The notes under the pieces: model-generated | The model's input: only the letters and a program-made list of their open reading frames with translations | Databases searched by the model: none | What the model was told of the DNA's origin: nothing | Shown here: positions 481-33,103 of the stretch, one piece after another | How positions within the stretch are numbered: position 1 is the stretch's first letter | Layout: each line of letters begins with the position of its first letter | Program-made: the position numbers and the translations under genes | Assembly (NCBI GenBank): GCA_949297215.1 | Contig: CASFRV010000006.1 | Location: 84,149-117,277 of the forward strand | Direction: 5' to 3' | Length of the DNA stretch: 33,129 nucleotides | Origin: an uncultured Bacteroidales bacterium | GTDB taxonomy: Bacteria; Bacteroidota; Bacteroidia; Bacteroidales; Bacteroidaceae

Positions 481-3108
481 ATGACGAAACGCCTTTTGCT
501 CCTCAGCCTGCTGACGCTCCTGCCCCTCGGCCTGAAAGCCACCGGCGGGAGCGATGCCGAAGCGCTCTTCCGGCGCTTCCGCGAAGCCGCCCGCTTCGAC
601 TTCAACTACCCGCGCGAGCGCGTTTACCTGCATCTCGACAACAATGCCTACGTCGAGGGCGAGACCATCTGGTTCAAGGCCTACGTCATGCGGGCGTCGA
701 GCCTGGCAGCCTCGGAGCTGAGCCGCGTGCTCTACGTCGAGCTGCTCAACGCCGACGGCGAACTGATGGAGCGCAAGCTGCTGCGCGTGGAGAACGGGCA
801 GGCTGCCGGCGAGCTCTCGCTGCAACTGCCCGTCCGCTCGGGCTATTACGAGGTGCGCGCCTATACGCGCGAAATGCTCAACTGGGGGCCGGCCGTCTGC
901 TTCTCGCGCGTGGTGCCTGTGTTTCGCCGGGCGGCCGACGGCGGCCCGCTCTCGCCGCTCACCATCGACCGCCCGATGGCCGAAAGCGACCTGGCGCCCT
1001 CGCATGCGCGGCCATACACCTTTCCGAAGGCAGGCGGCGTGCGCATGGCCTTCTTTCCCGAAGGGGGCAACCGCGTAAAGGGGCTGACCCAGCGCGTTGC
1101 GTTCAAGCTGACCGACGACCGCGGCTATGCCCTGGCCGACTCGTGCGAGCTCTTTGCCGAGGACGGCACGCGGCTGGGCGCCTTCCGCCCGCAGCACGAG
1201 GGCATGGGCGTTTTCACGGTGCCGGCCGCGGCGGGGCAGGGCAGCGTCGTGGTGCACAGCGGCGGGGGGACGAAGCGTTTCGACCTGCCGGCCGCCGCAG
1301 CCTCGGGCTACGTGATGACCGTCGGGGCTGACGACGGTGGATGCAGCGTGGTGGTGGAGCGCAGCGCCGGCGAGGCGCCCCGCCTGCTGGGGCTGCTCGT
1401 GGCGTGCCGCGACCGGGTGTGCCATTTCGACACGCTCACCGTGACCGACGGCGCCGTGGAGCTGCTCCTCCCCGACGAGGCGCTGCGCACGGGCGTGAAC
1501 CGCATCGAACTGTTCGACGCCGACGGGCGCAGCCTGTGCAGCCGCCTGCTCTTCAAGCGGGGCAGCGAGCGCACCCTGCGGCTCGACGTGCGCCAGAACG
1601 AGGAGCGCTATGCCGCCTTTGCCCCCGTGGCGCTCGAAATGCACCTGAGCGACGCCGAGGGCCGCCCCGCGCAGGGCACCTTCTCGCTCGCCGTGCGCGA
1701 TGCCGGGAGCGAACTGGTGGCCTCGCCCGAGGCCTCGCTCGACGCCGAGCTGCTGCTGGCATCGGAGGTGAAGGGCTACGTGGCCCGGCCCGAATATTAC
1801 TTCGAAGCCGACGACGCGGCCCACGACCGGGCGCTCGACCTGCTGCTGATGGTGCAGGGCTGGACGGCCAACGATTTTGAGACGCTTTGCGGCGCGAAGC
1901 CCATGCGCATCGGCCAGCCCATCGAGGAGAAGCTCACGCTGGACGGCCGCATCCTGCACGACAACGACAAGCAGAAGCCGCGGCCCGGCGCCGAGGTGGG
2001 CCTGTTCATGTACACCCGGGCGGGAGCCGCCATGCGCTCGCGGGCCGTGGCCGACAGCGTGGGAGGCTTTACCTTTGTGTCCGAGGAGGACTACACCGGC
2101 CGCTGGATAGGCCAGTTTTCCATCACGGAAGAGGGAAAGAACAAGTGGAGCCGCGTGGCCCTGAACCGGTGGTTCGACCCTGCGCCGCGGCCTTTCGCCT
2201 TTCGCGAGCTCGAACTGACGCCGCCCGACACCGTGCGCCGCAGCCGCCCCGCGGCACGCGAGGAGCTCTTCGCCTGGACCGACACGCTGCCCACCTATCA
2301 GCGCATCGACCTGGGAACGGCCGAAGTGACCACCCGAAACCGTTACCGCGGGCTGACGGGCAACCGCTATTCGTACCAGGGGGGCGAAAAGGCCGGGGCC
2401 GCACGCGCGCGTATCTTCTACAACGTGGAGCGCGAGCTGGAACGCCGCAAGGACGAGGGGCGGGGAGTGCCCTATATCTGGGACTTTCTGAAGGAGAAGA
2501 ACGAGGATATCTATTACGAGTACGCCACCGACACGACCGACCCCTACGTAAAAGGCTTTTTCCAGGCCATCGGCGACGTGGGGCAGGCTCCGGGCGACGT
2601 CATCCTGCCCTACTACAAGGGCCGCCCGGCCGTGGTGTTTCTCGACAACGACCTGCTCTTGCAGCGCAAGAAGATGGACAACGGCCTGATGCTGGCCGAC
2701 GAAATCAAATCGGCCGTGGTCATTGAGAACCAGGACGACTGGGAGCATTTCCTGCCGTCGAAGAGCTTCACCTTCGCCGGCGGCAACATCGGCAACTACC
2801 GGCCGGCGGCCATCTTCCTTTATTCGAACCCCGACTTCGCCCTGATGCGCACCAAGAAGGGGGTGGAGAAACGCATCATTTACGGCTTTTCCATCCCGAA
2901 ACGGTTCTACTCGCCCAACTACCGGGGCATCGACCTGCCCTCGGCCGCCGACGTGCGCCGCACGCTCTACTGGAACCCCTCGGTGACGGCCGGCGCGGAC
3001 GGCAAGGCCACGGCCGTCTTTTTCAACAGCTCGCACGACGGCGCGCGGCTGCGCATTTCGGCGCGCGGTGTGACGGCGGAGGGGCGTTTCGTCAGCTACG
3101 ACCGCTAA
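481..3108 (+). CDS. Large exported MG2-like domain protein of unknown function
   Basis: An 875-residue protein starting with a clear signal peptide (MTKRLLLLSLLTLLPLGLKA, about residues 1-20), so it is exported to the periplasm or outer membrane. Soon after comes ERVYLHLDNNAYVEGETIWFK, typical of the macroglobulin MG2 domain found in many large Bacteroidetes surface proteins. The middle resembles repeated beta-sandwich domains. The region around residues 690-760 (GDVILPYYKGRPAVVFLDN) looks like the plug-like domain found in some of these proteins, but no beta-barrel follows. Related proteins are usually annotated only as MG2 or TonB-plug-like. The start lies three bases after the nitroreductase stop and no other start fits the signal peptide. 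Function is unknown; a role in handling proteins or ligands at the cell envelope is only a guess. Confidence 0.82.
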   Translation: MTKRLLLLSLLTLLPLGLKATGGSDAEALFRRFREAARFDFNYPRERVYLHLDNNAYVEGETIWFKAYVMRASSLAASELSRVLYVELLNADGELMERKLLRVENGQAAGELSLQLPVRSGYYEVRAYTREMLNWGPAVCFSRVVPVFRRAADGGPLSPLTIDRPMAESDLAPSHARPYTFPKAGGVRMAFFPEGGNRVKGLTQRVAFKLTDDRGYALADSCELFAEDGTRLGAFRPQHEGMGVFTVPAAAGQGSVVVHSGGGTKRFDLPAAAASGYVMTVGADDGGCSVVVERSAGEAPRLLGLLVACRDRVCHFDTLTVTDGAVELLLPDEALRTGVNRIELFDADGRSLCSRLLFKRGSERTLRLDVRQNEERYAAFAPVALEMHLSDAEGRPAQGTFSLAVRDAGSELVASPEASLDAELLLASEVKGYVARPEYYFEADDAAHDRALDLLLMVQGWTANDFETLCGAKPMRIGQPIEEKLTLDGRILHDNDKQKPRPGAEVGLFMYTRAGAAMRSRAVADSVGGFTFVSEEDYTGRWIGQFSITEEGKNKWSRVALNRWFDPAPRPFAFRELELTPPDTVRRSRPAAREELFAWTDTLPTYQRIDLGTAEVTTRNRYRGLTGNRYSYQGGEKAGAARARIFYNVERELERRKDEGRGVPYIWDFLKEKNEDIYYEYATDTTDPYVKGFFQAIGDVGQAPGDVILPYYKGRPAVVFLDNDLLLQRKKMDNGLMLADEIKSAVVIENQDDWEHFLPSKSFTFAGGNIGNYRPAAIFLYSNPDFALMRTKKGVEKRIIYGFSIPKRFYSPNYRGIDLPSAADVRRTLYWNPSVTAGADGKATAVFFNSSHDGARLRISARGVTAEGRFVSYDR

Positions 3109-3142: not shown

Positions 3143-3174
3143 TTTGGCAGTAAGGCCGGAAAGCTCTACATTTG
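3143..3174 (+). promoter_or_regulatory. Promoter of the phe/tyr operon
   Basis: A Bacteroidetes-type promoter: TTTG at 3143-3146, a 20-base spacer, and TACATTTG at 3167-3174. Transcription would start near 3180, leaving a leader of about 180 bases before pheA that contains a short aromatic-rich ORF and a terminator. Confidence 0.75.
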
Positions 3175-3201
3175 CCGCGAACAAACAAGAAAACAGCGAC
3201 C

Positions 3202-3288
3202 ATGACAATGTCTGCTTCCTACTTTTTCGGTTTTTATTTTTACTTTGCCGGGCAAGCGAAGCGGGACGTTGCGTGCGTTAGGAAATAA
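3202..3288 (+). CDS. Phe/Tyr leader peptide of the pheA operon
   Basis: A 28-codon ORF starting 22 bases or so after the predicted transcription start. Its residues 7-15 read YFFGFYFYF: five Phe and three Tyr codons within nine. The remaining residues are ordinary (AGQAKRDVACVRK). It ends at TAA 3286-3288, about 20 bases before an intrinsic terminator, and the downstream operon makes Phe and Tyr. This arrangement is the classic ribosome-mediated attenuation leader. The start could be ATG 3202 or the in-frame ATG 3208. The composition, the position and the competing RNA pairings (see the terminator entry) all agree, but translation is inferred, not seen. It is too short for standard gene callers. 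Confidence 0.85.
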   Translation: MTMSASYFFGFYFYFAGQAKRDVACVRK

Positions 3289-3306
3289 AAATAAGAACCA
3301 ATCGCG

Positions 3307-3340
3307 AAAATCCCGCTCCCACCCGGAAGCGGGATTTTTC
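3307..3340 (+). terminator. Attenuator terminator before pheA
   Basis: A perfect 11-bp stem (3307-3317 AAAATCCCGCT with 3328-3338 AGCGGGATTTT), a 10-base loop and a T run. A second copy of the 3' arm core, AGCGGGA, lies inside the leader ORF at 3260-3266 and can pair with 3311-3317. CCGGG at 3248-3252 can pair with CCCGG in the terminator loop (3322-3326). Together these form an alternative, terminator-disrupting structure. The expected logic is that a ribosome stalled on Phe/Tyr codons (3220-3246) favours the antiterminator. Confidence 0.85.
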
Positions 3341-3358: not shown

Positions 3359-4189
3359 ATGAAGACAATAGCGATACAAGGCGTCGAGGGCTCGTTTCAC
3401 GACATGGCCGCCCACCGATATTTCCCGGGCGAGGAAATCAAGCTGGTGTGCTGCAACACGTTCGAGGACGTGTTTGGCAGCATGGAGCACGACCGCGAAA
3501 TGCTCGGCATGGTGGCCATCGAAAACACGATAGCCGGCAGCTTGCTCCACAACTACGAGCTGCTGCGCGCCAGCGGGAAGGTCGTCGTGGGCGAATACAA
3601 GCTGCACATCGAGCACAGCCTGCTCTGCCTGCCCGAAGACAGCTGGGAGAGCATCACCGAGGTCCACTCGCACCCGGTGGCCCTGGCCCAGTGCCGGCAG
3701 TTCCTTGCCGCCCATCCCGCGCTGCGTGCCGTCGTGGCCGACGACACGGCCGGCGCCGCCGAAGCCATCAGCCGCGACCACATGCGCGGGCATGCCGCCA
3801 TCTGCTCGGCAGATGCCGCGCCGCTCTACGGCATGAAGGTGCTCCAACAGGCCATTGAGGACAACAAGCACAACTATACGCGCTTTCTGCTCGTGAGCGA
3901 CCCGCTTTTTGCCAACGACCTGCGCACGCCCGACCGCACCGACAAGAGTTCGCTCGTCTTCACCCTCCCGCACGAAGAGGGCAGCCTCTCGCAGGTGCTC
4001 TCCATCTTCACGTTCTACAAGATCAACCTGACGAAAATACAGTCGTTGCCCATCGTGGGCCGCGAGTGGGAATATCTGTTCTACATCGACGTGACGTACA
4101 CCGACTACCTGCGCTTCCGGCAGAGCATCGAAGCCGTGCGCCCCCTGACGAAACAACTGAAAATACTTGGAGAATATGCAGCCTCTTGA
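3359..4189 (+). CDS. pheA: Prephenate dehydratase
   Basis: Converts prephenate to phenylpyruvate, the committed step to phenylalanine, in the cytoplasm. The 276-residue length is usual for the monofunctional enzyme. The catalytic domain (about 1-185) starts MKTIAIQGVEGSFHDMAA and ends with the conserved TRF motif in NYTRFLLVS. It is followed by an ACT domain (about 195-276) with HEEGSLSQVLSIF. The allosteric Phe-binding motif, ESRP in many homologues, reads QSLP here, so feedback control may differ. It is the first gene after the attenuator and overlaps the aminotransferase by 14 bases. No Shine-Dalgarno is obvious, as usual in this phylum. Identity is secure. Confidence 0.95.
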   Translation: MKTIAIQGVEGSFHDMAAHRYFPGEEIKLVCCNTFEDVFGSMEHDREMLGMVAIENTIAGSLLHNYELLRASGKVVVGEYKLHIEHSLLCLPEDSWESITEVHSHPVALAQCRQFLAAHPALRAVVADDTAGAAEAISRDHMRGHAAICSADAAPLYGMKVLQQAIEDNKHNYTRFLLVSDPLFANDLRTPDRTDKSSLVFTLPHEEGSLSQVLSIFTFYKINLTKIQSLPIVGREWEYLFYIDVTYTDYLRFRQSIEAVRPLTKQLKILGEYAAS

Positions 4190-5381
4190 AAGCAAAACAC
4201 CGGCCATCCGCCCCGCCGACCGCCTGGCGGCCGTGAGCGAATACTACTTCAGCCGTAAGGGCAAGGAGATAGCCCGTCTGAACGCCGCCGGGCAGGACAT
4301 CATCAGCCTGGCCATAGGGAGCCCCGACATGCCGCCCTCGCCCGAGACGGTCGAAACGCTCTGCCGCGAGGCGCGCCGCGACGATGCCCACGGCTATCAG
4401 CCGACGGCGGGCACGCCCGAGCTGCGCCGGGCCATGAGCGGCTTCTACAAACGCTGGTATGGCGTGGAACTCGACCCCGACAGCGAGATACAGCCGCTCA
4501 TCGGCTCGAAAGAGGGCATCCTGCACGTCACGCTGGCTTTTGTCAACCCCGGTGAGCGCGTTCTGGTGCCCAATCCCGGCTACCCCACCTACACCTCGCT
4601 GAGCCGCCTGCTGGGCTGCGAGGTGGTCCACTACGACTTACGGCCCGAGCTGGGCTGGCAGCCCGACTTTGACCAGCTGGAAAGCATGGACCTCACGGGC
4701 GTGCGCCTTTTGTGGAGCAACTACCCGCACATGCCCACCGGTGCCCCGGCGCGCATGGAGACCTACGAGCGCCTGGTCGACTTTGCCCGCCGCCACGGCA
4801 TCGTCGTCGTCAACGACAATCCGTACAGCTTCATCCTCAACCGCGAGCGCAGGAGCCTGCTCCAAGTGGACGGCGCCAAGACGTGCTGCATCGAGTTCAA
4901 CTCGATGAGCAAGAGCCACAACATGCCGGGCTGGCGCGTGGGCATGCTGGCCTCGAACGCCGAGTTTGTGAGCTGGGTGCTCAAGGTGAAGAGCAACATC
5001 GACTCGGGCACCTTCCGCCCGCTCCAACTGGCAGCCGCCCGCGCCTACGAAAACAGCGAGGCCTGGCACGTCGAGGCCAACGTCAACGTCTATGCCCGCC
5101 GCCGCCACCTGGCCGGCGCCATCATGGACGCCCTGGGCTGCACCTACGACCCCGCCCAGGTGGGCATGTTCCTGTGGGGCCGCATCCCCGACGCCTGTGC
5201 CGACGCCGAGGAGCTTACCGAGCGCGTGCTTCGCGAGAGCCGCGTGTTCATCACGCCGGGCTTCATCTTCGGCTCGAACGGCAGGCGCTATGTGCGCATT
5301 TCGCTCTGTGCAAAAGAAGAAAGAATGGCCGAAGCCCTCGGCCGCATCCGCGATACGTTCAACACATTATCCACCCGTTAA
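4176..5381 (+). CDS. Class I/II PLP aminotransferase of the phe/tyr operon
   Basis: A fold-type I pyridoxal-phosphate aminotransferase of 401 residues. The cofactor lysine is in SMSKSHNMPGWRVG (about residue 245), with the substrate and PLP contact regions NPGYPTY and NDNPYSF. It resembles aspartate and LL-diaminopimelate aminotransferases. Placed between pheA and the DAHP synthase gene, it probably carries out the last transamination to phenylalanine and tyrosine; this is inferred from context, since sequence does not fix the substrate. I chose ATG 4176 because GGAG lies at 4169-4172; a TTG at 4167 is possible but less likely. It overlaps pheA by 14 bases, which suggests translational coupling. 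Confidence 0.9.
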   Translation: MQPLESKTPAIRPADRLAAVSEYYFSRKGKEIARLNAAGQDIISLAIGSPDMPPSPETVETLCREARRDDAHGYQPTAGTPELRRAMSGFYKRWYGVELDPDSEIQPLIGSKEGILHVTLAFVNPGERVLVPNPGYPTYTSLSRLLGCEVVHYDLRPELGWQPDFDQLESMDLTGVRLLWSNYPHMPTGAPARMETYERLVDFARRHGIVVVNDNPYSFILNRERRSLLQVDGAKTCCIEFNSMSKSHNMPGWRVGMLASNAEFVSWVLKVKSNIDSGTFRPLQLAAARAYENSEAWHVEANVNVYARRRHLAGAIMDALGCTYDPAQVGMFLWGRIPDACADAEELTERVLRESRVFITPGFIFGSNGRRYVRISLCAKEERMAEALGRIRDTFNTLSTR

Positions 5382-5393
5382 AACATCTTGACC

Positions 5394-6464
5394 ATGGAAC
5401 TCCATCTCGAACCCTTGCGCCTCCCGGGCATCGACCCGAAGCGCCCCGTCGTCGTCGCCGGCCCCTGCTCGGCCGAGACCGAAGAACAAGTGATGACCAC
5501 TGCCACGCAACTTTGCAAGAAAGGCATCAAAATATTCCGCGCGGGCATCTGGAAGCCCCGCACCAAGCCCGGCGGTTTCGAGGGCGTGGGCACGGTGGGC
5601 CTGCCGTGGATGCAGCGCGTCCAGCAGGAGCTGGGCATGCTCGTGGCCACTGAGGTGGCTACGCCGCGCCATGTCGAGGCTGCCCTCGAAGCAGGCATTG
5701 ACCTGCTCTGGGTGGGCGCCCGCACGGTGGCCAACCCGTTTGCCATGCAGGAACTGGCCGACTCGCTGCGCGGAGCCGACGTGCCCGTGCTGGTGAAAAA
5801 CCCCGTCAACCCCGACCTTGAGCTGTGGATCGGCGGGCTGGAACGCATCAACGGGGCGGGCATCACGCGCCTGGGCGTCATCCACCGCGGCTTCTCGTCC
5901 TACGACAAAAAGCTCTACCGCAACCTGCCCATGTGGCACATCCCCATCGAGCTCCACCGCCGCATCCCGGCGCTGCCCATCTTCGGCGACCCGAGCCACA
6001 TCGGCGGCAAGCGTGAGCTCATAGCCCCGCTCTGCCAGCAGGCCATGGACCTGGGCTTCGACGGTCTCGTGGTCGAGAGCCACTGCTGCCCCGACGAGGC
6101 GTGGAGCGACGCCGGCCAGCAGGTGACGCCCGACGTGCTCGACTTCATCCTCGACAAGCTCGTCATCCGCGAGGCGACGCAGACCACCGAAAGCCTGGAA
6201 ACCTTGCGCAGGCAGATTGATGAATGCGACAACTCCATCCTGGAACTGCTGGCACGGCGCATGAGAGTGAGCCGCGAAATCGGCCAATACAAGCGCGAAC
6301 ACAACATGACCGTCGTGCAGGCCAGCCGCTACTCGGAGATACTCGAAAAGCGCGGCGCGCAGGGCGTGCTCTGCGGCATGAGCGCCGAGTTTATGAAGGC
6401 GGTCTTCGAGGCCATCCACGAGGAAAGCGTGCGCCAGCAGATTGAAATCATGAACAAGGAATAA
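5394..6464 (+). CDS. Bifunctional DAHP synthase / chorismate mutase
   Basis: A two-enzyme fusion of 356 residues. Residues about 1-260 are a DAHP/KDO8P synthase-type barrel that condenses phosphoenolpyruvate with erythrose 4-phosphate; VVAGPCSAET, FRAGIWKPRTKPGGFEG and FGDPSHIGGKR are signature regions. Residues about 270-356 are an AroQ-type chorismate mutase (LRRQIDECDNSILELLARRM, then IGQYKREHNM), which turns chorismate into prephenate. C-terminal mutase fusions of this kind are known from Porphyromonas and Prevotella, where the mutase also helps feedback control of the synthase. In one operon it supplies both the entry step of the pathway and the substrate for pheA and tyrA. Start ATG 5394 is chosen over TTG 5388. 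The next gene starts 14 bases later. Confidence 0.95.
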   Translation: MELHLEPLRLPGIDPKRPVVVAGPCSAETEEQVMTTATQLCKKGIKIFRAGIWKPRTKPGGFEGVGTVGLPWMQRVQQELGMLVATEVATPRHVEAALEAGIDLLWVGARTVANPFAMQELADSLRGADVPVLVKNPVNPDLELWIGGLERINGAGITRLGVIHRGFSSYDKKLYRNLPMWHIPIELHRRIPALPIFGDPSHIGGKRELIAPLCQQAMDLGFDGLVVESHCCPDEAWSDAGQQVTPDVLDFILDKLVIREATQTTESLETLRRQIDECDNSILELLARRMRVSREIGQYKREHNMTVVQASRYSEILEKRGAQGVLCGMSAEFMKAVFEAIHEESVRQQIEIMNKE

Positions 6465-6478
6465 ACACAGCAAGAAAG

Positions 6479-7252
6479 ATGCGTATCCTCATATTGGGAG
6501 CAGGCAAGATGGGCTCGTTCTTCGTCGACCTGCTCAGCTTCGACCACGAGACGGCCGTCTACGACGTTGATGCGCGCCGCCTGCGCTTCATGTACAACAC
6601 GCAGCGCTTCACGCAGCCCGAGGAAATAGAGGCTTTCCGCCCCGAACTGGTGGTCAACGCCGTGACGCTCGAGCGCACGCTCGACGTGTTTCGTGCCGTC
6701 GTCCCCCTGCTGCCGCTCGACTGCATCATCAGCGACATCGCCTCGGTGAAAACGGGCTTGAAGGACTATTACCTCACGTGCGGCCGCCGCTACGTGTCGA
6801 CCCACCCCATGTTTGGCCCCACCTTTGCCAACCTTGGTGCGCTGAGCTCCGAGAATGCCATCGTCATCTCCGAGGGCGACTACATGGGGCGCATCTTCTT
6901 CAAGGATCTCTACGCACGTCTGGGGCTTCACGTCTGCGAATATACGTTCGACGAGCACGACGAAACCGTGGCCTACTCGCTAAGCATCCCCTTCGTCTCC
7001 ACTTTCGTCTTTGCCGCCGTCATGAAGCATCAGGACGCGCCGGGCACCACCTTTAAGCGCCACCTGCAAATAGCCCGCGGCGTGCTGGGCGAGGACGACT
7101 GCCTGCTGCGCGAAATTCTCTTCAACCCGCGCACGGGCGGCCAAGTGTCGAAAATTCGCGACGAGCTGACCAACCTGCTCGACATCATAGACCGCCGCGA
7201 CGCCGGGGCCCTCGACGCCTACTTGCAGCGCATCCGCGGAAACATACGGTGA
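6479..7252 (+). CDS. tyrA: Prephenate dehydrogenase
   Basis: Oxidatively decarboxylates prephenate to 4-hydroxyphenylpyruvate, the tyrosine branch. It has 257 residues. The N-terminus MRILILGAGKMGSFF is the NAD(P) dinucleotide-binding loop, ISDIASVKTGL is a conserved family segment, and STHPMFGPTF is the signature of prephenate dehydrogenases, with the catalytic His. An all-helical C-terminal half follows. There is no C-terminal ACT domain, so feedback by tyrosine is likely exerted elsewhere, for instance through the Phe/Tyr leader. It is the last gene of the operon, followed by an inverted-repeat region. Confidence 0.93.
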   Translation: MRILILGAGKMGSFFVDLLSFDHETAVYDVDARRLRFMYNTQRFTQPEEIEAFRPELVVNAVTLERTLDVFRAVVPLLPLDCIISDIASVKTGLKDYYLTCGRRYVSTHPMFGPTFANLGALSSENAIVISEGDYMGRIFFKDLYARLGLHVCEYTFDEHDETVAYSLSIPFVSTFVFAAVMKHQDAPGTTFKRHLQIARGVLGEDDCLLREILFNPRTGGQVSKIRDELTNLLDIIDRRDAGALDAYLQRIRGNIR

Positions 7253-22263: not shown

Positions 22264-22614
22264 ATGAACTTTACCTTATTAGTGACAACACTGCTTACAG
22301 GTATTGCTTTCGTAGGTATCGTGGTGGTATTGGCGAAGCTGATTTCGCCACGCTCCTACAACAAGCAAAAGGAAGAGGCTTACGAATGTGGTATCCCGAC
22401 GCGCGGCCGCTCATGGATGCAGTTTCGCGTGGGCTACTATCTCTTTGCCATCTTGTTCCTGATGTTCGACGTCGAGACGATGTTCCTCTTTCCGTGGGCC
22501 GTCGTGATGCGTTCGCTGGGCCCGGCCGGCCTTTGGAGCGTGCTCTTCTTCCTGTTCATCTTAGTTCTGGGCCTGGCCTATGCCTGGAGGAAAGGAGCGT
22601 TGAAATGGCAGTGA
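22264..22614 (+). CDS. nuoA: NADH-quinone oxidoreductase subunit A
   Basis: A small membrane subunit of respiratory complex I, 116 residues with three helices. The conserved loop YECGIP and the motif LMFDVETMFLFPWA are intact; the acidic residues of the latter are family hallmarks. It is the first gene of the operon. The start region is AT-rich with no Shine-Dalgarno. It overlaps nuoB by 10 bases. Confidence 0.96.
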   Translation: MNFTLLVTTLLTGIAFVGIVVVLAKLISPRSYNKQKEEAYECGIPTRGRSWMQFRVGYYLFAILFLMFDVETMFLFPWAVVMRSLGPAGLWSVLFFLFILVLGLAYAWRKGALKWQ

Positions 22615-23246
22615 TGAAGAAACCAAACATCAAGTCGATCCCTTACGAGGAGTTTAAGGACAACGAAACCTTCGAGAAGCTCGTGGCCGAGCTCAACGCC
22701 GGCGGCGCCAACGTCGTCGTGCGCAAGCTGGACGATCTTATCGACTGGGGACGCAGCAATTCGCTTTGGCCGCTCACGTTTGCCACGAGCTGCTGCGGCA
22801 TCGAGTTTATGGCCGTCTGCGCCGCGCGTTACGACATCGCCCGTTTTGGCTTCGAGGTGACGCGCAACAGTCCGCGCCAGGCCGACGTCATCCTGGTGAG
22901 CGGTACGATAACGACGAAGATGGCGCCCGTGTTGAAGCGTCTGTACGACCAGATGGCTGACCCGAAGTATGTGGTGGCCATCGGCGGCTGCTCCATCAGC
23001 GGCGGACCGTTCACAAAGTCGTACCACGTGGTGCGCGGCGTCGACACCGTCATCCCCGTCGACGTCTACGTGCCCGGCTGTCCGCCCCGCCCCGAGTCGT
23101 TCCTCTACGGAATGATGCAGCTGCAGCGCAAGGTGAAGGTGGAAAACTTCTTCGGCACCGTCAACCGTAAGGAAAAGGACCCCTTCGCCAAGGAGGCTGT
23201 CCGCGAAAAGGAAAGAGAAATATTTAGCGAGGAGGAACAGGCATGA
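22605..23246 (+). CDS. nuoB: NADH-quinone oxidoreductase subunit B
   Basis: Carries the terminal N2 [4Fe-4S] cluster that hands electrons to quinone. It has 213 residues. The four cysteine ligands are in TSCCGIEF, IGGCSISGGPF and VPGCPPRPE. The start ATG 22605 is preceded by AGGAG seven or so bases upstream, which decides it over the ATG at 22614. A charged C-terminal tail (about 25 residues) extends past the usual end. It overlaps nuoC/D by four bases (ATGA). Confidence 0.96.
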   Translation: MAVMKKPNIKSIPYEEFKDNETFEKLVAELNAGGANVVVRKLDDLIDWGRSNSLWPLTFATSCCGIEFMAVCAARYDIARFGFEVTRNSPRQADVILVSGTITTKMAPVLKRLYDQMADPKYVVAIGGCSISGGPFTKSYHVVRGVDTVIPVDVYVPGCPPRPESFLYGMMQLQRKVKVENFFGTVNRKEKDPFAKEAVREKEREIFSEEEQA

Positions 23247-24811
23247 ATCTGGACATAAGAACCGTTGCACCCGAGAACCTGCGCGAGGAAATGCTCCGTC
23301 TGCGCCGTGAGCAGAAGATGGACTTCCTGGAAACGCTCACCGGCATGGACTGGGGCGAAGAGGGCGGCCTTGGCGTCGTCTATACGTTGGAGTCGACCGA
23401 GACGGGAGAGCGCGTGGCGCTGAAAACGGCTACGACCGACCGCGAGAACCCGATGCTCCCGAGCGTGAGCGACATCTGGAAAATAGCAAACATCTACGAA
23501 CGCGAGGTCTACGACTTCTACGGCATCAAGTTTACGGGCCACCCCGACATGCGCCGCATCTTCCTGCGCGAGGACTGGGTGGGCTATCCCTTCCGCAAGG
23601 ACGATGAGCCCGAGAAGGAAAACCCGCTGCGCATGACCAACGAGCCGCTTGCCGACGTGACGGAGAGCTACGTGCTCAACCCCGACGGAAGCGTCACGAA
23701 GGAGACGCACCGCATCTTCGAGGAGGGCGAATACGTCGTCAACATCGGCCCGCAGCACCCCTCGACGCACGGCGTGCTCCACTTCCGCGTGAGCCTCGAC
23801 GGCGAGGTGATACGGAAAATCGACCCCGTGCTGGGATATATCCACCGCGGCGTCGAGAAGCTCAACGAAAGCCTTACCTATCCGCAGGCGCTGGCCCTGA
23901 CCGACCGCCTCGACTATCTGGGCGCCATGCAGAACCGCCACGCCCTCTGCCTCTGCATCGAGCAGGCCATGGGCATCGAGGTGAGCGACCGCGTCAAGGT
24001 GATCCGCACCATCATGGACGAGTTGCAGCGTATCGACTCGCACATACTCTTCTTCTCCTGCCTCTGCCAGGACCTGGGCGCCACGACGGCCTTCCTCTAC
24101 GGCTTCCGCGACCGCGAGAAGATACTCGACATATTCGAGGAAACCTGCGGCGGCCGCCTCATTCTCAACTACAACACCATCGGCGGCGTCATGGCCGACC
24201 TGCATCCCAACTTCGTAAAGCGCGTCAAGGAGTTTATCCCCTACATGCGCAAGAATATGCAGGAATATTTCGACGTTTTCATCAACAACGTCATTGCCCG
24301 CAACCGTATGGACGGCGTTGGCGTGCTTTCGCTGGATGACGTCATCTCGTTTGGCTGCACGGGCGGTACGGGACGCGCCTCCGGCTGGCACAACGACGTG
24401 CGCAAGCGCATGCCTTATGCCGCCTACGACCGGGTGGAGTTTAACGAGATCACCCGTACGGAGGGCGACAGCTTTGCCCGCCTCATGATACGTATGGACG
24501 AAATCAAGGAGAGTCTCAACATCATCGAACAGCTCATCGACAACATCCCCGAAGGTCCGTTCCAGGAAAAGACGAAACCCATCATCAAGGTGCCCGAAGG
24601 TACGTACTATACGGCCGTCGAGGGCAGCCGTGGCGAGTTTGGCGTCTTCCTGGAAAGCCATGGCGACAAAACGCCCTACCGTCTCCACTACCGTGCCACG
24701 GGCCTGCCGCTGGTGGCCGTCATGGATACGGCATGTCGCGGCAACCTGATAGCCGACCTGATTACCATCGGTGGAACCGTCGACTACGTGGTGCCCGACA
24801 TTGACAGATAA
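23243..24811 (+). CDS. nuoCD: NADH-quinone oxidoreductase fused subunits C and D
   Basis: A single 522-residue protein joining two peripheral complex I subunits. Residues about 1-125 are NuoC (30-kDa type), with REVYDFYGIKFTGHPDMRRI. Residues about 160-522 are NuoD (49-kDa type), with NIGPQHPSTHGVLHF, whose His helps bind quinone, then GYIHRGVEKL and a C-terminal end VDYVVPDIDR. The fusion also occurs in enterobacteria and in other Bacteroidetes. The next gene is nuoH; the usual nuoE, F and G are missing between them. Confidence 0.96.
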   Translation: MNLDIRTVAPENLREEMLRLRREQKMDFLETLTGMDWGEEGGLGVVYTLESTETGERVALKTATTDRENPMLPSVSDIWKIANIYEREVYDFYGIKFTGHPDMRRIFLREDWVGYPFRKDDEPEKENPLRMTNEPLADVTESYVLNPDGSVTKETHRIFEEGEYVVNIGPQHPSTHGVLHFRVSLDGEVIRKIDPVLGYIHRGVEKLNESLTYPQALALTDRLDYLGAMQNRHALCLCIEQAMGIEVSDRVKVIRTIMDELQRIDSHILFFSCLCQDLGATTAFLYGFRDREKILDIFEETCGGRLILNYNTIGGVMADLHPNFVKRVKEFIPYMRKNMQEYFDVFINNVIARNRMDGVGVLSLDDVISFGCTGGTGRASGWHNDVRKRMPYAAYDRVEFNEITRTEGDSFARLMIRMDEIKESLNIIEQLIDNIPEGPFQEKTKPIIKVPEGTYYTAVEGSRGEFGVFLESHGDKTPYRLHYRATGLPLVAVMDTACRGNLIADLITIGGTVDYVVPDIDR

Positions 24812-24820
24812 ACCATCCTG

Positions 24821-24865
24821 CCGGGGCACGGCCGTGCGGCGGAGAGCCGCCGGCCGCCGGCCCGG
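24821..24865 (+). other. GC-rich structured spacer between nuoCD and nuoH
   Basis: The 79-base gap folds into nested stems: CCGGG 24821-24825 with CCCGG 24861-24865, GGCCG 24830-24834 with CGGCC 24851-24855, and GCGGC 24836-24840 with GCCGC 24846-24850. No T run follows, so it is more likely an mRNA stability or processing element than a terminator. Confidence 0.55.
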
Positions 24866-24890
24866 TGCGAACTTATCATAAACAGAAGTT

Positions 24891-25973
24891 ATGTTATTCG
24901 ATTTTAATGTAATATCCCAATGGATACACGGGGCGCTCACGTCGGTCATGCCCGAGTGGGCGGCAATACTCACCGAGAGTATTCTGGTGGCGCTGGTCAT
25001 CATCACGCTCTATGCCGTGTTCGCGATCATCCTCATTTACATGGAGCGCAAGATCTGCGCTTTCTTCCAGTGTCGTCTGGGCCCGATGCGCGTGGGCAAA
25101 TGGGGACTTTTGCAGCTCTTTGCCGACGTGTTCAAGATGCTGACGAAGGAAATCATCAGCATGCGTCAGTCCGACCGCTTTCTCCACAACCTGGCTCCGT
25201 TCCTTGTCGTGGTGGCTTCGATGCTGACGTTCGCCTGTCTGCCCTGGAACAAGGGGGCACACATCCTCGACTTCAACGTCGGTGTGTTCTTCATGCTGGC
25301 AGCCTCGTCTATCGGCGTGGTGGGCATCCTGCTGGCCGGTTGGAGCAGCAACAACAAGTATTCGCTCATCGGTGCCATGCGTAGCGGTGCGCAGATCATC
25401 AGTTATGAGCTCTCTATCGGCCTGACTATGCTCACCATGATGGCGCTCACCGGCACGTTGCAGATTTCGGAAATCGTCGAGCAGCAGTATGCCGAGGGCT
25501 GGAACATCGTGCGCGGCCACGTGCCCGCCGTCATCGCCTTCCTTATCTACCTGATAGCAGGCAACGCCGAGTGTAACCGCGGCCCGTTCGACCTGCCCGA
25601 GAGCGAAAGCGAGCTCACGGCAGGTTATCATACGGAGTACTCGGGTATGCACTTCGGCTTCTACTACCTTTCCGAGTATCTGAACCTGTTCATCACGGCG
25701 GGTATCGCCACGACCATCTTCCTCGGAGGCTGGGCGCCGCTGCATATCATCGGTCTGGACGGGTTCAACGGTGTCATGGACTATATCCCCGGCATTGTCT
25801 GGTTCGTAGGCAAGACGCTTTTTGTTGTCTTTCTGCTCATGTGGATCCGCTGGACGTTCCCCCGCCTGCGTATCGACCAGATCCTGGCTCTCGAATGGAA
25901 ATACCTCGTGCCCATCAGCTTGGTCAACCTGGTGCTCATGGCCCTCGTGGCAGCTTATGGATTTCATTTCTAA
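24891..25973 (+). CDS. nuoH: NADH-quinone oxidoreductase subunit H
   Basis: A membrane subunit next to the quinone chamber that links the peripheral arm to the proton-pumping arm. It has 360 residues and about eight helices. Conserved loops are [34 protein letters not shown] and [19 protein letters not shown], the last rich in the acidic residues needed for coupling. It is preceded by the GC-rich spacer and 21 bases upstream of nuoI. Confidence 0.97.
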
Positions 25974-25994
25974 CGGAGTAAAACTACATTGATT

Positions 25995-26465
25995 ATGAAA
26001 GAAGATAAAACATATCTTGCTGGGTTGTTCGGGGGCATCAAAACGCTGTGCGTCGGCCTGAAGACGACGATGCGCGAGCTCTTTACGCCCAAAGTGACCG
26101 AGCAGTATCCCGAGAACCGCCGGGAGCTGAAGATGTTCGACCGTTTCCGCGGTTCGCTCACGATGCCCCACAACGAGAACAACGAGCACAAGTGTGTGGG
26201 CTGCGGCTTGTGCCAGATGGCATGCCCGAACGGCACCATTACGGTGAAGAGCGAATTTTACGAGACGGAAGATGGCAAGAAGAAAAAGCGTCTTGTCAGC
26301 TACGAGTACAATCTGGGCTCCTGCATGTTCTGTCAACTGTGTGTGAGGGCCTGCCCGCACGGCGCCATCACGTTCGACCAGAGTTTTGAGAATGCCGTGT
26401 TCGACCGTTCGAAGCTTGTTAAGAAGCTGAACCACGAAGGCAGCAAATTAATGGAAACGAAATAA
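25995..26465 (+). CDS. nuoI: NADH-quinone oxidoreductase subunit I
   Basis: An 8-iron ferredoxin-type subunit of 156 residues. Two full cluster motifs are CVGCGLCQMACPNGTI and CMFCQLCVRACPHGAI (clusters N6a and N6b). In a complex without nuoEFG it is a likely docking point for an alternative electron donor such as ferredoxin, but this is inference. Start ATG 25995 is preferred to TTG 25989. Confidence 0.96.
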   Translation: MKEDKTYLAGLFGGIKTLCVGLKTTMRELFTPKVTEQYPENRRELKMFDRFRGSLTMPHNENNEHKCVGCGLCQMACPNGTITVKSEFYETEDGKKKKRLVSYEYNLGSCMFCQLCVRACPHGAITFDQSFENAVFDRSKLVKKLNHEGSKLMETK

Positions 26466-26474
26466 TCAGACATT

Positions 26475-26987
26475 ATGAATTCGCATAATATTATGTTCAT
26501 CGTGCTGGCAGTCTTCATCGCTCTGTCCTCGTTTATGACGGTGCTGACGAAGAGCATCATCCGGGCTGCCACGTACCTGCTCTTCGTGCTGCTGGGTACG
26601 GCCGGTCTGTATTTCCTTATGGGCTATACGTTCCTCGGCTCCGTTCAGGTCATGGTGTATGCGGGAGGCATCGTCGTGCTGTACGTGTTCTCCATCCTCC
26701 TTACCAGCGGCGCCAAAGACGTTGTGAACAACCGTACGAAGAAAAAAGTGTTCTTCTCGGCGTTGCTCTCGCTCGTGGGCTTTGCCACGGTGCTCGTCGT
26801 ATTGCTCAAGCACGGCTTCAAGGCTGCTGTCCTTTCTGCTCCCGAGGAGGGAGGCATCACCATCGACAGCGTGGGCCGCTTCATGCTTTCGTCCGGCCAG
26901 AACGGCTATCTCCTGCCTTTCGAGGCGGTGAGCGTTCTGTTGCTGGCATGCATCGTCGCAGGCTTGCTGATTGCCCGTAAACGCTAA
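26475..26987 (+). CDS. nuoJ: NADH-quinone oxidoreductase subunit J
   Basis: A membrane subunit of 170 residues with five helices. The third helix has the conserved segment GSVQVMVYAGGIVVLYVF, whose Tyr-Ala-Gly region forms a pi-bulge in complex I. It starts nine bases after nuoI and ends 15 bases before nuoK. Confidence 0.95.
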   Translation: MNSHNIMFIVLAVFIALSSFMTVLTKSIIRAATYLLFVLLGTAGLYFLMGYTFLGSVQVMVYAGGIVVLYVFSILLTSGAKDVVNNRTKKKVFFSALLSLVGFATVLVVLLKHGFKAAVLSAPEEGGITIDSVGRFMLSSGQNGYLLPFEAVSVLLLACIVAGLLIARKR

Positions 26988-27002
26988 AAATGGAATAAGA
27001 TT

Positions 27003-27311
27003 ATGATACATTTGGAATATATTCTCATCATTTCGGCCATCATGATGTTCGCAGGCGTCTACGGCTTCCTGACGCGCAAGAGCACGCTGGCCATACTGCT
27101 CTCCATCGAGCTGATGCTTAATTCCACGGACATCAATTTCGCGGCATTCAACCGAATGCTTTACCCCGACGGACACGAGGGCTATTTCTTTGCCCTGTTC
27201 TCCATCGCCATCTCGGCGGCCGAGAGCGCCATCGCCATTGCCATCATGATCAATATCTACCGAATGCTGAAAGACATATCGGTGGGCAAGCTCGAAAAGA
27301 TGAAATGGTGA
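27003..27311 (+). CDS. nuoK: NADH-quinone oxidoreductase subunit K
   Basis: A 102-residue, three-helix membrane subunit. The two proton-channel glutamates are visible in LLSIELMLNS and in AAESAIAIAI. The length is usual for the family. 48 bases separate it from nuoL. Confidence 0.96.
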   Translation: MIHLEYILIISAIMMFAGVYGFLTRKSTLAILLSIELMLNSTDINFAAFNRMLYPDGHEGYFFALFSIAISAAESAIAIAIMINIYRMLKDISVGKLEKMKW

Positions 27312-27359
27312 ACTGCGGGATAACAAAGCAATTTTCAAACCGTAAGCAACACAATTGAT

Positions 27360-29270
27360 ATGGAATACACAATATTGATACTTCTGCTTCCGTTTCTCTC
27401 GTTCCTTCTTTTGGGAATAGCGGGAAAATGGTTCAGCCACAGGACAGCAGGTCTCATTGGCACGTGTTGTCTGGCCGTTGTGACGATACTTTCGTACATG
27501 ACAGCCTACGACTTCTTTACCATGCCCCGCACGGCTGAAGGTGTCATCGAGGCCATACCCCCGGTGGTCAACTTCACGTGGCTGCCTTTCTTCGCCGAGG
27601 GGCTGAAATTTGAGATGGGCATCCTGCTCGACCCCATCTCGGTCATGATGCTGATCGTCATCTCCACGGTTTCTTTCATGGTACACATCTATTCGTTCGG
27701 CTATATGCACGGGGAGCGCGGCTTCCAGCGCTATTATGCCTTCCTCAGCCTGTTCACCATGTCCATGCTCGGTCTGGTGGTGGCTACGAACATTTTCCAG
27801 ATGTACCTCTTCTGGGAGCTCGTGGGCGTTTCGTCCTATTTGCTCATCGGCTTCTACTACACGTCGCCCGCGGCCATCGCGGCATCGAAGAAGGCCTTCA
27901 TCGTGACGCGCTTTGCTGACATGTTCTTCCTCATCGGCATTCTTATCTATGGCTACTACTGCGGAACGTTCAGCTTCGACTTCGCCGGCGAGGCCCGCGG
28001 CTTTGCTGCCGGCGGCTTCATGCTCCCGACGGCCTTGCTGCTGATGTTCATCGGTGGTGCAGGTAAGAGCGCCATGTTCCCGTTGCACATCTGGCTGCCC
28101 GACGCCATGGAGGGCCCGACGCCCGTCAGCGCTCTCATCCACGCCGCTACGATGGTGGTGGCCGGCGTGTTCCAGATTGCACGCCTCTTCCCCTTGTGGA
28201 TACAGTACGCTCCCGACACGTTGCACATCGTGGCCTGGGTGGGTGCCTTCACGGCGTTCTATGCAGCGTCGGTGGCCTGCGTCCAGAGCGACATCAAGCG
28301 CGTGCTGGCCTTCTCCACCATTTCGCAGATTGCCTTCATGATGGTGGCCCTCGGCGTTTGCACGGAGATTACCACCGGTCATGACCATCCCGGCAGCCTG
28401 GGCTACATGGCTTCGATGTTCCACCTGTTCACACACGCCATGTTCAAGGCCCTTCTCTTCCTTGGAGCCGGGTGTATCATCCATGCTGTCCACAGCAACG
28501 AGATGAGTGCCATGGGTGGCTTGCGCAAGTATATGCCCATCACGCACATTACGTTCCTCGTCGCCTGCCTGGCCATCTCGGGCATACCTCCTTTCTCGGG
28601 CTTCTTCTCGAAGGACGAAATCTTGACGGCCTGCTTCGCATACAGCCCCGCCATGGGCTGGATCATGACAGCCATCGCAGGCATGACGGCCTTCTACATG
28701 TTCCGCCTGTATTATGGCATTTTCTGGGGCACGGAGAACAAGGAGCTCCACGCCGAGCACACGCCGCACGAGGCTCCGCTCACGATGACTGTCCCCCTGA
28801 TGGTGCTGGCTCTGATCACCATTTTCTGCGGATGGGCCTTCAACTTCGGCAGCTACGTGAGCGCCGACGGCCGCGACTATCAGATACACCTCGACTGGTC
28901 GGTGGCCGGCACGAGCATCGTTGTGGCCATCGTGGCCATCGCCCTTGCCACCTTCATTTATGCCCGCGACAAGCAGCCCGTGGCCGACAAGCTGGCCGCG
29001 CAGTTCAGCAGCTTGCACAAATGGGCCTACCACCGCTTCTATATGGACGAGGTTTATCAGTTCATCACGCACCGCATCATCTTTGCCCACATATCGAAGC
29101 CCATCGCCTGGTTCGACCGTCACGTGGTTGACGGCTTCTTCAACTTCCTGGCATGGGGCACGAACGCCCTCGGCTTCGAAATACGCGGCTTGCAGAGCGG
29201 AAGCGTGCAGAAGTATGCCTTCGTCTTCCTGCTGGGTGCTCTTCTCCTGTTGTTTATCATGATAATTTAA
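27360..29270 (+). CDS. nuoL: NADH-quinone oxidoreductase subunit L
   Basis: A distal antiporter-like proton-pumping subunit of 636 residues. The channel glutamate is in YLFWELVGVSSYLLIGFY, and the lysine-bearing helix region includes GGAGKSAMFPLHIWLPDAMEGPTPVSALIHAATMV. The C-terminal about 100 residues include the long lateral helix region and a final membrane anchor (YAFVFLLGALLLLFIMII). Nothing is missing compared with the family. Confidence 0.97.
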   Translation: MEYTILILLLPFLSFLLLGIAGKWFSHRTAGLIGTCCLAVVTILSYMTAYDFFTMPRTAEGVIEAIPPVVNFTWLPFFAEGLKFEMGILLDPISVMMLIVISTVSFMVHIYSFGYMHGERGFQRYYAFLSLFTMSMLGLVVATNIFQMYLFWELVGVSSYLLIGFYYTSPAAIAASKKAFIVTRFADMFFLIGILIYGYYCGTFSFDFAGEARGFAAGGFMLPTALLLMFIGGAGKSAMFPLHIWLPDAMEGPTPVSALIHAATMVVAGVFQIARLFPLWIQYAPDTLHIVAWVGAFTAFYAASVACVQSDIKRVLAFSTISQIAFMMVALGVCTEITTGHDHPGSLGYMASMFHLFTHAMFKALLFLGAGCIIHAVHSNEMSAMGGLRKYMPITHITFLVACLAISGIPPFSGFFSKDEILTACFAYSPAMGWIMTAIAGMTAFYMFRLYYGIFWGTENKELHAEHTPHEAPLTMTVPLMVLALITIFCGWAFNFGSYVSADGRDYQIHLDWSVAGTSIVVAIVAIALATFIYARDKQPVADKLAAQFSSLHKWAYHRFYMDEVYQFITHRIIFAHISKPIAWFDRHVVDGFFNFLAWGTNALGFEIRGLQSGSVQKYAFVFLLGALLLLFIMII

Positions 29271-29283
29271 GCCATTTGACGAT

Positions 29284-30807
29284 ATGAATTTTCTATCATT
29301 ATTCGTTCTGATACCCCTTCTCATGCTGCTCGGGCTTTGGTTGGCCCGGGGGCTGAAGGGCGTGCGCACCGTCATGGTGATTGGCAGCTCGGCCCTGCTC
29401 CTGCTGGCAGCCTGGCTCACCGTCACCTTCCTGTCCGACCGTGCGGCCGGGCTCGACGCCGAGATGCTCTACACGGCTTCGTTCACTTGGTTCGAGCCGC
29501 TCCATATTAAGTACTCCGTAGGTGTCGACGGCATCTCGGTGGCCATGCTGCTGCTGTCGTCCATCATCGTGTTCACGGGAACGTTTGCTTCCTGGCAGCT
29601 CAAGCCGCTCACCAAGGAATACTTCCTCTGGTTCACGCTCCTGAGCCTCGGTGTGTTCGGCTTCTTCATTTCGGTCGACATGTTCATGATGTTCATGTTC
29701 TACGAGATAGCCCTCATCCCCATGTACCTCCTCATCGGCGTGTGGGGCAGCGGTAAGAAAGAATATGCCGCCATGAAGCTCACGCTCATGCTCATGGGTG
29801 GTTCCGCCTTCCTGATGTGTGGCATTTTCGGCATCTTCTACGGTGCCGGCGGCCAGACGATGAACGTCGTCGACATTGCCAACCACACGGGCGGCGCCCA
29901 CCCCATCGACTTTGCGCAGCAGTGCATCTGGTTCCCCTTGACGTTCATCGGCTTCGGCGTGCTGGGAGCGCTCTTCCCGTTCCACACGTGGAGCCCCGAC
30001 GGTCATGCCTCGGCCCCCACGGCCGTGTCGATGCTCCATGCCGGTGTGCTCATGAAGCTTGGCGGCTACGGCTGCTTCCGCATCGCCATGTATCTGATGC
30101 CCGAGGCCACGAATGAGCTGGGCTGGATCTTCCTCATCCTTACGGGCATTTCCGTGGTCTACGGAGCCTTCTCGGCATGCGTGCAGACCGACTTGAAATA
30201 CATCAACGCCTATTCGTCCGTATCCCACTGCGGCCTGGTGCTCTTTGCCATCCTCATGGTCAACCAGACGGCGGCCACGGGTGCCGTGCTTCAGATGTTG
30301 AGCCACGGACTGATGACGGCCCTCTTCTTTGCCCTCATCGGTATGATCTACGGCCGCACGCACACGCGCGACATCCGCGAGCTGAACGGCCTGATGCGCA
30401 TCATGCCCTTCCTCTCCGTCTGCTACGTCATCGCCGGTCTGGCCAACCTCGGTTTGCCCGGCCTGAGCGGCTTCGTGGCCGAGATGACCATCTTTGTCGG
30501 TTCGTTCCAAAACGCCGATACGTTCCACCGCGTGCTCACCATCGCCGCCTGCACGAGCATCGTCATCACGGCAGTCTACATCCTGCGCCTCGTGGGTAAG
30601 ATTCTCTACGGCACATGCACGAACGAGCATCACCTGAAGCTCACCGATGCCACGTGGGACGAGCGCCTCTCCGTCATCTGCCTCATCGTGGCCGTGGCCG
30701 GTCTGGGTCTGGCTCCTCTGTGGGTGTCGAACATGGTCAGCGGCGGTGTGGCTCCCATCATCGAGCACATCGGCCATGGCGTGTCCTCATGTAATCCGTT
30801 CATTTAA
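29284..30807 (+). CDS. nuoM: NADH-quinone oxidoreductase subunit M
   Basis: The second antiporter-like subunit, 507 residues and about 14 helices. The channel glutamate is in FMFYEIALIPMYLLIG and the key lysine in LHAGVLMKLGGYG. FPFHTWSPDGHASAPTAVSM is the conserved loop. It starts 13 bases after nuoL. Confidence 0.97.
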   Translation: MNFLSLFVLIPLLMLLGLWLARGLKGVRTVMVIGSSALLLLAAWLTVTFLSDRAAGLDAEMLYTASFTWFEPLHIKYSVGVDGISVAMLLLSSIIVFTGTFASWQLKPLTKEYFLWFTLLSLGVFGFFISVDMFMMFMFYEIALIPMYLLIGVWGSGKKEYAAMKLTLMLMGGSAFLMCGIFGIFYGAGGQTMNVVDIANHTGGAHPIDFAQQCIWFPLTFIGFGVLGALFPFHTWSPDGHASAPTAVSMLHAGVLMKLGGYGCFRIAMYLMPEATNELGWIFLILTGISVVYGAFSACVQTDLKYINAYSSVSHCGLVLFAILMVNQTAATGAVLQMLSHGLMTALFFALIGMIYGRTHTRDIRELNGLMRIMPFLSVCYVIAGLANLGLPGLSGFVAEMTIFVGSFQNADTFHRVLTIAACTSIVITAVYILRLVGKILYGTCTNEHHLKLTDATWDERLSVICLIVAVAGLGLAPLWVSNMVSGGVAPIIEHIGHGVSSCNPFI

Positions 30808-30831
30808 TCAACATCAAACCCGACAGTAGAA

Positions 30832-32277
30832 ATGGATTATTCGCAATTCCTTTATATGCACGAGGAGCTCTCGCTCCTCCTGGTCATCACGATACTTTTC
30901 GTGGCCGACCTCATCATGTGCCCCGATAAGAAGAGCGGCCGCGGCGTCTACAACACGTGCCTGCCCGTCGTGCTGCTCACGCTCCACACGGTGCTCAATC
31001 TTCTGCCCTGTGCGGGCGACGCCGCCACGTCGGCTTTTGGTGGCATGTACCAGCACACGCCCATGATGACCATTGTCAAGAGCGTGCTCAACGTCGGCAC
31101 CCTCGTCGTTTTCCTCATGGCTCACGACTGGCTCCGCCGCGAGGAAAACAAGGTGAAGCAGGGCGAATTTTATCTGCTCACGCTCTTCACCCTGCTGGGC
31201 ATGTACTTTATGATATCAGCCGGCCACTTCCTCATGTTCTTCATCGGTCTTGAGCTGGCCTCCATCCCGTTGGCCGGCCTGGTGGCCTTCGACAAGCTCC
31301 GCTACGAGAGCGCCGAGGCAGGAGCCAAGTTCATCCTGCTTGCTCTCTTTTCGAGCGCCCTGCTGCTCTACGGCGTTTCGCTGCTCTACGGAGCTGCCGG
31401 CACGCTCTATTTCGACGAGTTTTTCTCGCAGCTCCGTCCGGGCCTTCTCTCCGTGTTGGGCATGACGTTCTTCATCACGGGCATGGGCTTCAAGATATCG
31501 CTTGTTCCGTTCCATCTCTGGACGGCCGACACCTATCAGGGCGCGCCCACCGTCGTCACGGGTTACCTTAGCGTCGTGTCGAAGGGTGCGGCAGCCTTTG
31601 TGCTCCTTACGGTGCTCTGCAAGGTCTTTGCCCTGACGCCTCTCTTCGAAGCTTGGAACCACGGGCTCTTCTGGATCATCATCCTCACCATCACCGTGGC
31701 CAACCTCTTCGCCATCCGTCAGAAAAACCTGAAGCGCTTCATGGCCTTCTCGGCCATTTCGCAGGCCGGTTACGTCATCCTGCCCATCATGGGCGGAACG
31801 GCTCAGGGTATGACGGCGCTTGTCTACTACCTGCTCGTCTACATGGCAGCCAATCTCGGCGCCTTTGCCGTCATCAACGTCGTGGAGCAACGTAGCGGCA
31901 AGATCAACATCGACGATTACGACGGCCTCTACCGCACCAACCCCAAGCTGGCGTTCCTCATGACGCTCTGCCTCTTCTCGCTGGCCGGCATCCCGCCCTT
32001 CGCCGGGTTCTTCTCGAAGTTCTTCGGCTTCATGGCAGCCTTCAACGCAGGCGAGCACCTGCTCGTGTTCATCGCTTTGGTCAACACGGTCATCTCGCTC
32101 TACTACTACCTGCTCATCGTCAAGGCAATGTACATTAAGACGAGCGACAGCCCCATCGCCACCTTCAAGAGCGACGGCTACACACGTGTGGCCCTGGCCG
32201 TCTGCCTGCTCGGCGTCGTCCTGCTCGGCATCGTCGGCACGGTGTACAACTACATCGACACGTTCAGCTACGCATAA
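30832..32277 (+). CDS. nuoN: NADH-quinone oxidoreductase subunit N
   Basis: The third antiporter-like subunit, 481 residues. The channel glutamate is in [18 protein letters not shown], and the conserved lysines are in [20 protein letters not shown] (nearby) and [12 protein letters not shown]. It is the last gene of the operon, with a strong hairpin 24 bases later. Confidence 0.97.
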
Positions 32278-33030: not shown

Positions 33031-33103
33031 GGTGCCATAGCTCAGTTGGTAGAGCAAAGGACTGAAAATCCTTGTGTCCCCGGTTCGATTCCTGGTGGCA
33101 CCA
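33031..33103 (+). tRNA. tRNA-Phe (GAA)
   Basis: A complete 73-base cloverleaf. The acceptor stem GGTGCCA (33031-33037) pairs with TGGCACC (33096-33102), with discriminator A at 33103. The D-loop contains GTTGG, the anticodon loop reads CTGAAAA with anticodon GAA, and the T arm has GGTTCGATTCC. CCA is not encoded; CTT follows, so it is added after transcription. Confidence 0.97.

Follow-up and report, generated by a model that had tools for sequence, protein, structure and literature searches.

In enterobacteria, pheA is preceded by a leader that combines a leader peptide, a terminator and competing helices, and the version found in Escherichia coli is rich in Phe and lacks a run of Tyr. Multivalent leaders, in which one leader serves several amino acids that share an operon, are represented by thrL (Thr and Ile) and the ilv leaders. 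The fullest earlier survey of attenuation is reportedly that of Lopatovskaya, Seliverstov and Lyubetsky (2010), which may already list pheA of Bacteroidetes, a phylum in which the Bacteroid-trp RNA (Rfam RF01692) presumably acts as a Trp leader attenuator. That RNA has been tabulated as a cis-regulatory candidate of Bacteroidetes (PMC2864571). In Flavobacterium psychrophilum and other Flavobacteriaceae, a structured 5′ element with no Rfam hit was reported at pheA, together with strong clues for leader-peptide attenuation 5′ of amino-acid operons, hisG also being named (PMC9723704). Upstream of aroF, the uORFC-13-1 motif comprises a uORF with at least one Phe codon followed by a terminator, with 24 representatives from Acholeplasma and environmental sequences (PMC8632094). 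Short ORFs reminiscent of leader peptides have also been described in Bacteroides thetaiotaomicron, with no mention of pheA in the portion of that text available to us (PMC7366714).

The locus described here lies in a 33,129-nucleotide stretch of DNA from an uncultured Bacteroidales bacterium (the window). It resembles the enterobacterial leader in placing a leader peptide, a terminator and competing helices before pheA, but has Tyr in its run and precedes a different operon. It carries Phe and Tyr, not the Trp of Bacteroid-trp, and shares with uORFC-13-1 a Phe-containing uORF and a terminator ahead of a DAHP synthase gene, whereas that motif, in the part of its description available to us, has no Tyr run. 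Its multivalence is like that of the thrL and ilv leaders, although the amino acids and the phylum differ. The pheA element of Flavobacteriaceae is in all likelihood the same element, found in a different order of the class, and hence a prior observation; that report, in the text available to us, is silent on codons, helices, a second amino acid, a wider distribution and a tandem form. Elsewhere in the window, inspection of the translations suggests consecutive NADH-quinone oxidoreductase genes at 22264-32277, and a tRNA gene lies at 33031-33103 (RF00005). The parts of the leader locus and its operon are as follows.

3143..3174, plus strand: promoter, with TTTG (3143-3146), a 20-nt spacer and TACATTTG (3167-3174); read from the sequence
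3202..3288, plus strand: leader ORF of 28 codons, ATG at 3202, TAA at 3286-3288, encoding MTMSASYFFGFYFYFAGQAKRDVACVRK; from the sequence and relatives
3197..3232, plus strand: region 1, the leader start and first control codons, predicted protector arm pairing with region 2; from duplex energy and permutation
3249..3267, plus strand: region 2, predicted antiterminator segment with the core AGCGGGA (3260-3266); from duplex energy and covariation
3306..3317, plus strand: region 3, terminator 5′ arm GAAAATCCCGCT, common to the predicted antiterminator and the terminator; from folding and permutation
3328..3339, plus strand: region 4, terminator 3′ arm and T run, AGCGGGATTTTT; from the sequence and folding
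3359..4189, plus strand: pheA, prephenate dehydratase (PF00800, E 1.2e-54)
4194..5381, plus strand: class I/II aminotransferase, start codon approximate (PF00155, E 1.1e-57)
5388..6464, plus strand: DAHP synthase fused to chorismate mutase (PF00793, PF01817)
6479..7252, plus strand: tyrA, prephenate dehydrogenase (PF02153, E 1.1e-8; below NCBIfam cut-offs)

An earlier note on this DNA had described a promoter, a leader ORF with an aromatic run and a terminator before pheA, and all three are present. The promoter, which we take to be of the Bacteroidota type, lies in the gap downstream of an ORF ending at 3108 and was scored in a site scan of the window as a sigma-70-like site with 9 of 12 positions, where shuffles yield 0.1. 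The large ORF ahead of the leader (481-3108) has a sub-threshold MG2 match (22.6 against 32.8 bits). The aromatic run of the leader reads SYFFGFYFYF, with eight Phe/Tyr codons among codons 7-15 (3220-3246). Among the 508 short ORFs of the window (8-60 amino acids, both strands), this is the only one with at least six Phe, Tyr or Trp per nine residues; it reaches eight, the runners-up reach five, and the 2.40 Mb genome to which it belongs has no second instance of its codon pattern. RNA folding gives the terminator (3306-3339) -19.5 kcal/mol, and its absence from a stricter terminator scan of the window follows from the rule of that scan, which allows loops of 3-8, shorter than the loop found here. 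The stem that the note gave as 11 bp counts 12 pairs when its G-U end is included. A copy of the terminator 3′ arm inside the ORF, also claimed there, was confirmed as AGCGGGA at 3260-3266; being such a copy, it complements the terminator 5′ arm, at TCCCGCT (3311-3317). The further pairing suggested between CCGGG (3248-3252) and the terminator loop could form, but in the best duplex the extra pairs are those of GGG (3250-3252) with CCC (3318-3320). The leader as a whole folds more stably than its own shuffles (z -3.21).

By their domain matches, the products of the four genes serve the synthesis of both Phe and Tyr. Within the sequence examined per locus, 46 of 80 named loci have all four genes in the order of the window; the first three are present at 29, the first two at 3, and PheA stands by itself at 2. 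In 53 survey loci with 1.5 kb flanks, 27 hold PheA-aminotransferase-DAHP synthase, 15 PheA-aminotransferase, 9 PheA-DAHP synthase and 2 PheA alone.

To follow the leader across relatives, we scored a pheA upstream region as positive when it held an ORF with at least seven Phe, Tyr or Trp in nine residues. Sequence upstream was sufficient at 79 of the 80 named loci, and two loci, L005 (137 nt) and L153 (75 nt), were dropped. The order sample held 109 relatives of 139 genomes with PheA (a count that includes the source genome), and the sample outside the order 84 of 337 phylum-survey genomes with PheA, picked by better matches and genus. Because loci were picked by match quality and genus, the resulting fractions are not from random samples: the leader precedes pheA in 76 of the 79 near relatives that are named, in 91 of 108 loci and 40 of 46 families of the order, 40 of 47 loci and 6 of 6 families of other orders of the class, and 5 of 37 loci outside the class, in total 212 of 271 regions. 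Two families of the class with PheA matches (f5 and f12) lie outside the set, and two more (f8 and f9) have no PheA matches. In a first-order simulation based on 212 regions, seven in nine was reached in 0.19% of simulated regions and eight in none of 1,060. The closest named genome is a metagenome-assembled genome labelled uncultured Alloprevotella, with a PheA 96% identical to that of the window. The threshold is missed at 3 of the 79 named loci, 17 of the 108 in the order and 7 of the 47 in the rest of the class; at the three near relatives with no leader at threshold upstream of pheA (L008, L036 and L064), our reading is that the switch was lost or replaced. The promoter-like pattern TAnnTTTG lies no more than 120 nt 5′ of the leader at 60 of the 68 named loci (2 after mononucleotide shuffling), 65 of the 101 in the order (5) and 27 of the 42 in the class (2). 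A scan of 60 genomes of the order for seven consecutive Phe/Tyr codons matched its reversed control about as often.

Phe is encoded in all 212 leaders and Tyr in 211. An attenuator that senses one amino acid only, such as Phe, with the other codons kept as TWY for the pairing of region 1, would also produce mixed runs, since Phe and Tyr codons are similar in letters and region 1 lies largely within them; the excess of Phe over Tyr residues in the order (564:362) and in the class (207:148) would fit such a device. The near relatives, however, have 331 Phe to 334 Tyr, both residues occur in 211 of 212 leaders and the operon makes both amino acids, and we consider a single signal unlikely. A leader that reads both amino acids is the reading followed below.

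Terminators were counted with the leader threshold lowered to six in nine. One follows the leader at 68 of the 76 named loci, all 101 in the order, 42 of the 43 in the class and all 6 outside it, as raw finder counts with no null; the 8 named leaders without one fail the T-run rule, and several of them have a hairpin with an interrupted T run. In 165 of 190 loci, region 2, which was searched for within 45 nt downstream of the aromatic run, starts 6-14 nt past the last aromatic codon. Across 55 family representatives, the cognate pairing of regions 2 and 3 (helix 2:3) averages -16.05 kcal/mol against -10.30 (sd 0.37) for permuted partners, the lowest of 5,000 permutations being -11.71; 13 representatives have their cognate region 3 ranked first among the 55, and 25 have it in the top three. 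All 55 helices differ, and in 53 that could be anchored, at least two kinds of standard pair are found at each position from -5 to +8 except +1. Helix 2:3 falls in the best 5% of shuffles of its own spacer at 64 of the 68 named loci, 85 of the 101 in the order, 39 of the 42 in the class and 4 of the 6 outside it, with a Wilcoxon p of 3e-26 for the survey loci (n 149) when related loci are treated as independent. Covariation across families thus supports a predicted antiterminator helix 2:3 that would compete with the terminator. The window's own pairing (-15.9 against a shuffle mean of -13.05) lies outside the best 5%, and the case for an attenuator rests mainly on the comparison of sequences with those of relatives.

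A ligand-binding riboswitch or a T-box with an incidental ORF could also present a long 5′ leader with a terminator. The conserved feature here is the codon run, the hairpin arms vary freely, and no Rfam family was found at gathering score in the leader region of the window or of 20 relatives, Bacteroid-trp (RF01692) included; the nearest model, Phe_leader (RF01859), reached 27.3 bits, below its cut-off of 55. We regard either kind of element as barely credible.

Beyond what the earlier note had described, we found a third helix, in which the control codons of region 1 pair with region 2 (helix 1:2; -31.2 kcal/mol in the window). Across the 55 representatives the cognate duplex averages -15.85 kcal/mol against -12.07 (sd 0.38) when permuted. 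It beats the mean of synonymous redraws of the codons in 58 of 68 named, 85 of 101 order, 32 of 42 class and 6 of 6 outside loci, and lies in the best 5% in 31, 29, 16 and 0, respectively. The survey p of 9e-19 again treats related loci as independent, and the replacement codons reflect usage across the group, which leaves room for the codon bias of single genomes to contribute to the signal; in the window alone the redraw test is not significant. Taken across relatives, these comparisons support a predicted protector helix formed with the control codons. They also bear on the view that the leader is a functional small protein or serves translational coupling, the hairpin merely ending a short transcript. 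In favour of that view, the peptide is conserved among near relatives and many leaders run past region 2; across families only the aromatic run is kept, synonymous codon choice favours RNA pairing and region 2 covaries with region 3, all of which makes that view very improbable.

The locus thus combines an ORF with codons for the products of its operon, an intrinsic terminator between this ORF and the first gene, and helices 2:3 and 1:2, and it very likely works as a ribosome-mediated transcription attenuator, with charged tRNA-Phe and tRNA-Tyr as the signals that it reads. Its best reading is as classical ribosome-mediated attenuation extended to two amino acids. The earlier note had expected relatives to keep the mixed Phe/Tyr leader at pheA and its competing pairings to covary, and both expectations were borne out, by the 212 positive regions, the covariation of helix 2:3 and the support for helix 1:2; its proposal of one leader with both kinds of codon before an operon making both amino acids is likewise supported, by the relatives and the operon content.

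In the mechanism we propose, a ribosome would translate the small ORF while RNA polymerase makes the leader RNA. With both tRNAs charged, it would clear the aromatic codons and arrive at the stop codon, leaving region 2 either covered or re-captured by region 1 through helix 1:2; region 3 would then be free to pair with region 4, and transcription would stop near 3340. With Phe or Tyr in short supply, the ribosome would stall on one of the eight aromatic codons and cover region 1, region 2 would be free to pair with region 3 before region 4 emerges, no terminator could form and the Phe/Tyr operon would be transcribed. As the two kinds of codon are mixed in the run, a shortage of either should suffice. 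Folding is consistent with these steps: with a ribosome of assumed footprint placed at seven of the eight aromatic codons and region 4 absent, the window RNA folds into helix 2:3 (-16.7 to -19.5), and with no ribosome it folds into helix 1:2, leaving region 3 for the terminator. Once region 4 has been made, the terminator is the preferred fold throughout, whether or not a ribosome is stalled, which makes the model dependent on timing, as the classical one is. Where the stop codon lies before or within region 2 (21 named, 43 order and 15 class loci), a finished ribosome would cover region 2; where it lies past region 2 (47, 58 and 27 loci, and the window itself), region 1 could re-capture it.

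The comparison with hisG provides a measure of specificity. Upstream of hisG in Bacteroidia, in the best 30 of 87 matched genomes by score, with upstream ends less certain in 4 loci, none of the 30 regions reaches seven aromatic residues in nine and 22, as a raw count, hold at least four His in nine, whereas 2 of 47 class pheA loci do so. This contrast indicates that leaders match their operons. The His-rich ORFs among the 30 hisG regions (L308-L337), for example MKTTNTHHHSHHAHIV in L316, are probably His leader attenuators, and the class seems to use ribosome-mediated attenuation generally. Inspection of upstream regions in the source genome found no His-rich leader at hisG and no Phe-rich leader at pheS.

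Trp codons also occur in the leader run, in 18 of the 40 leaders from other orders of the class (L216, L219, L235 and L240 among them) and in 25 of the 91 from the order itself. Trp as a third signal was considered and rejected, TrpE (PF04715) being found in 34 of 37 genomes with a Trp-bearing leader and 40 of 43 without. PF04715, the TrpE N-terminal domain, is present in 74 of 80 sampled relatives and had no match in the source genome, whose assembly is 94.6% complete; the organism is possibly a tryptophan auxotroph.

Two separate leaders of at least seven occur in 18 of 272 pheA upstream regions (the 271 of relatives and that of the window, which has one leader), spread over 12 families. A looser count, with one leader of at least seven and the other of at least six, gives 24 loci with two leaders, 18 of them with a terminator after each; 16 loci have both two leaders of at least seven and a terminator after each. 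L115 is one of these 16, and there the looser count lists an overlapping frame as the first leader. In the 18 terminator-bearing tandems, region 2 pairs with the region 3 of its own module at means of -13.7 and -15.8, against -9.6 and -8.6 with that of the other module, and, of the 18 taken singly, 13 first modules and 16 second modules stand out from shuffles at p 0.05 or less. First modules hold 95 Phe to 76 Tyr, and last modules 102 to 79. By eye, the two modules are of different types in five families (f110, f117, f127, f136 and f142), each type common to several families: the second leader run ends in FM with a region 2 of GGTG type, and the first has a region 2 of ACGGG type. Since the types differ within a pair and are shared between families, the pair looks old, which argues against recent duplication. 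On balance we favour, with some reserve, a history in which a single leader attenuator, bivalent for Phe and Tyr, ancestrally controlled pheA of Bacteroidia, and in which several families carry two complete ones in series. In the open-access literature searched, we found no report of tandem leaders at pheA or of a bivalent, class-wide Phe/Tyr form, and the tandem form in relatives is a more novel part of this work than the element of the window.

In this class, main gut commensals included, pheA seems as a rule to be preceded by a bivalent leader, for which Rfam has no family. Classical attenuation requires a ribosome close behind RNA polymerase, so that the pheA leaders, together with the His-rich leaders of hisG, provide a way to assay directly the coupling of transcription and translation in Bacteroidota. 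If the proposed history of the tandem leaders is true, serial terminators would multiply repression, with stalls needed at both leaders, giving a two-step, steeper switch and a natural series circuit for studying how attenuators combine.
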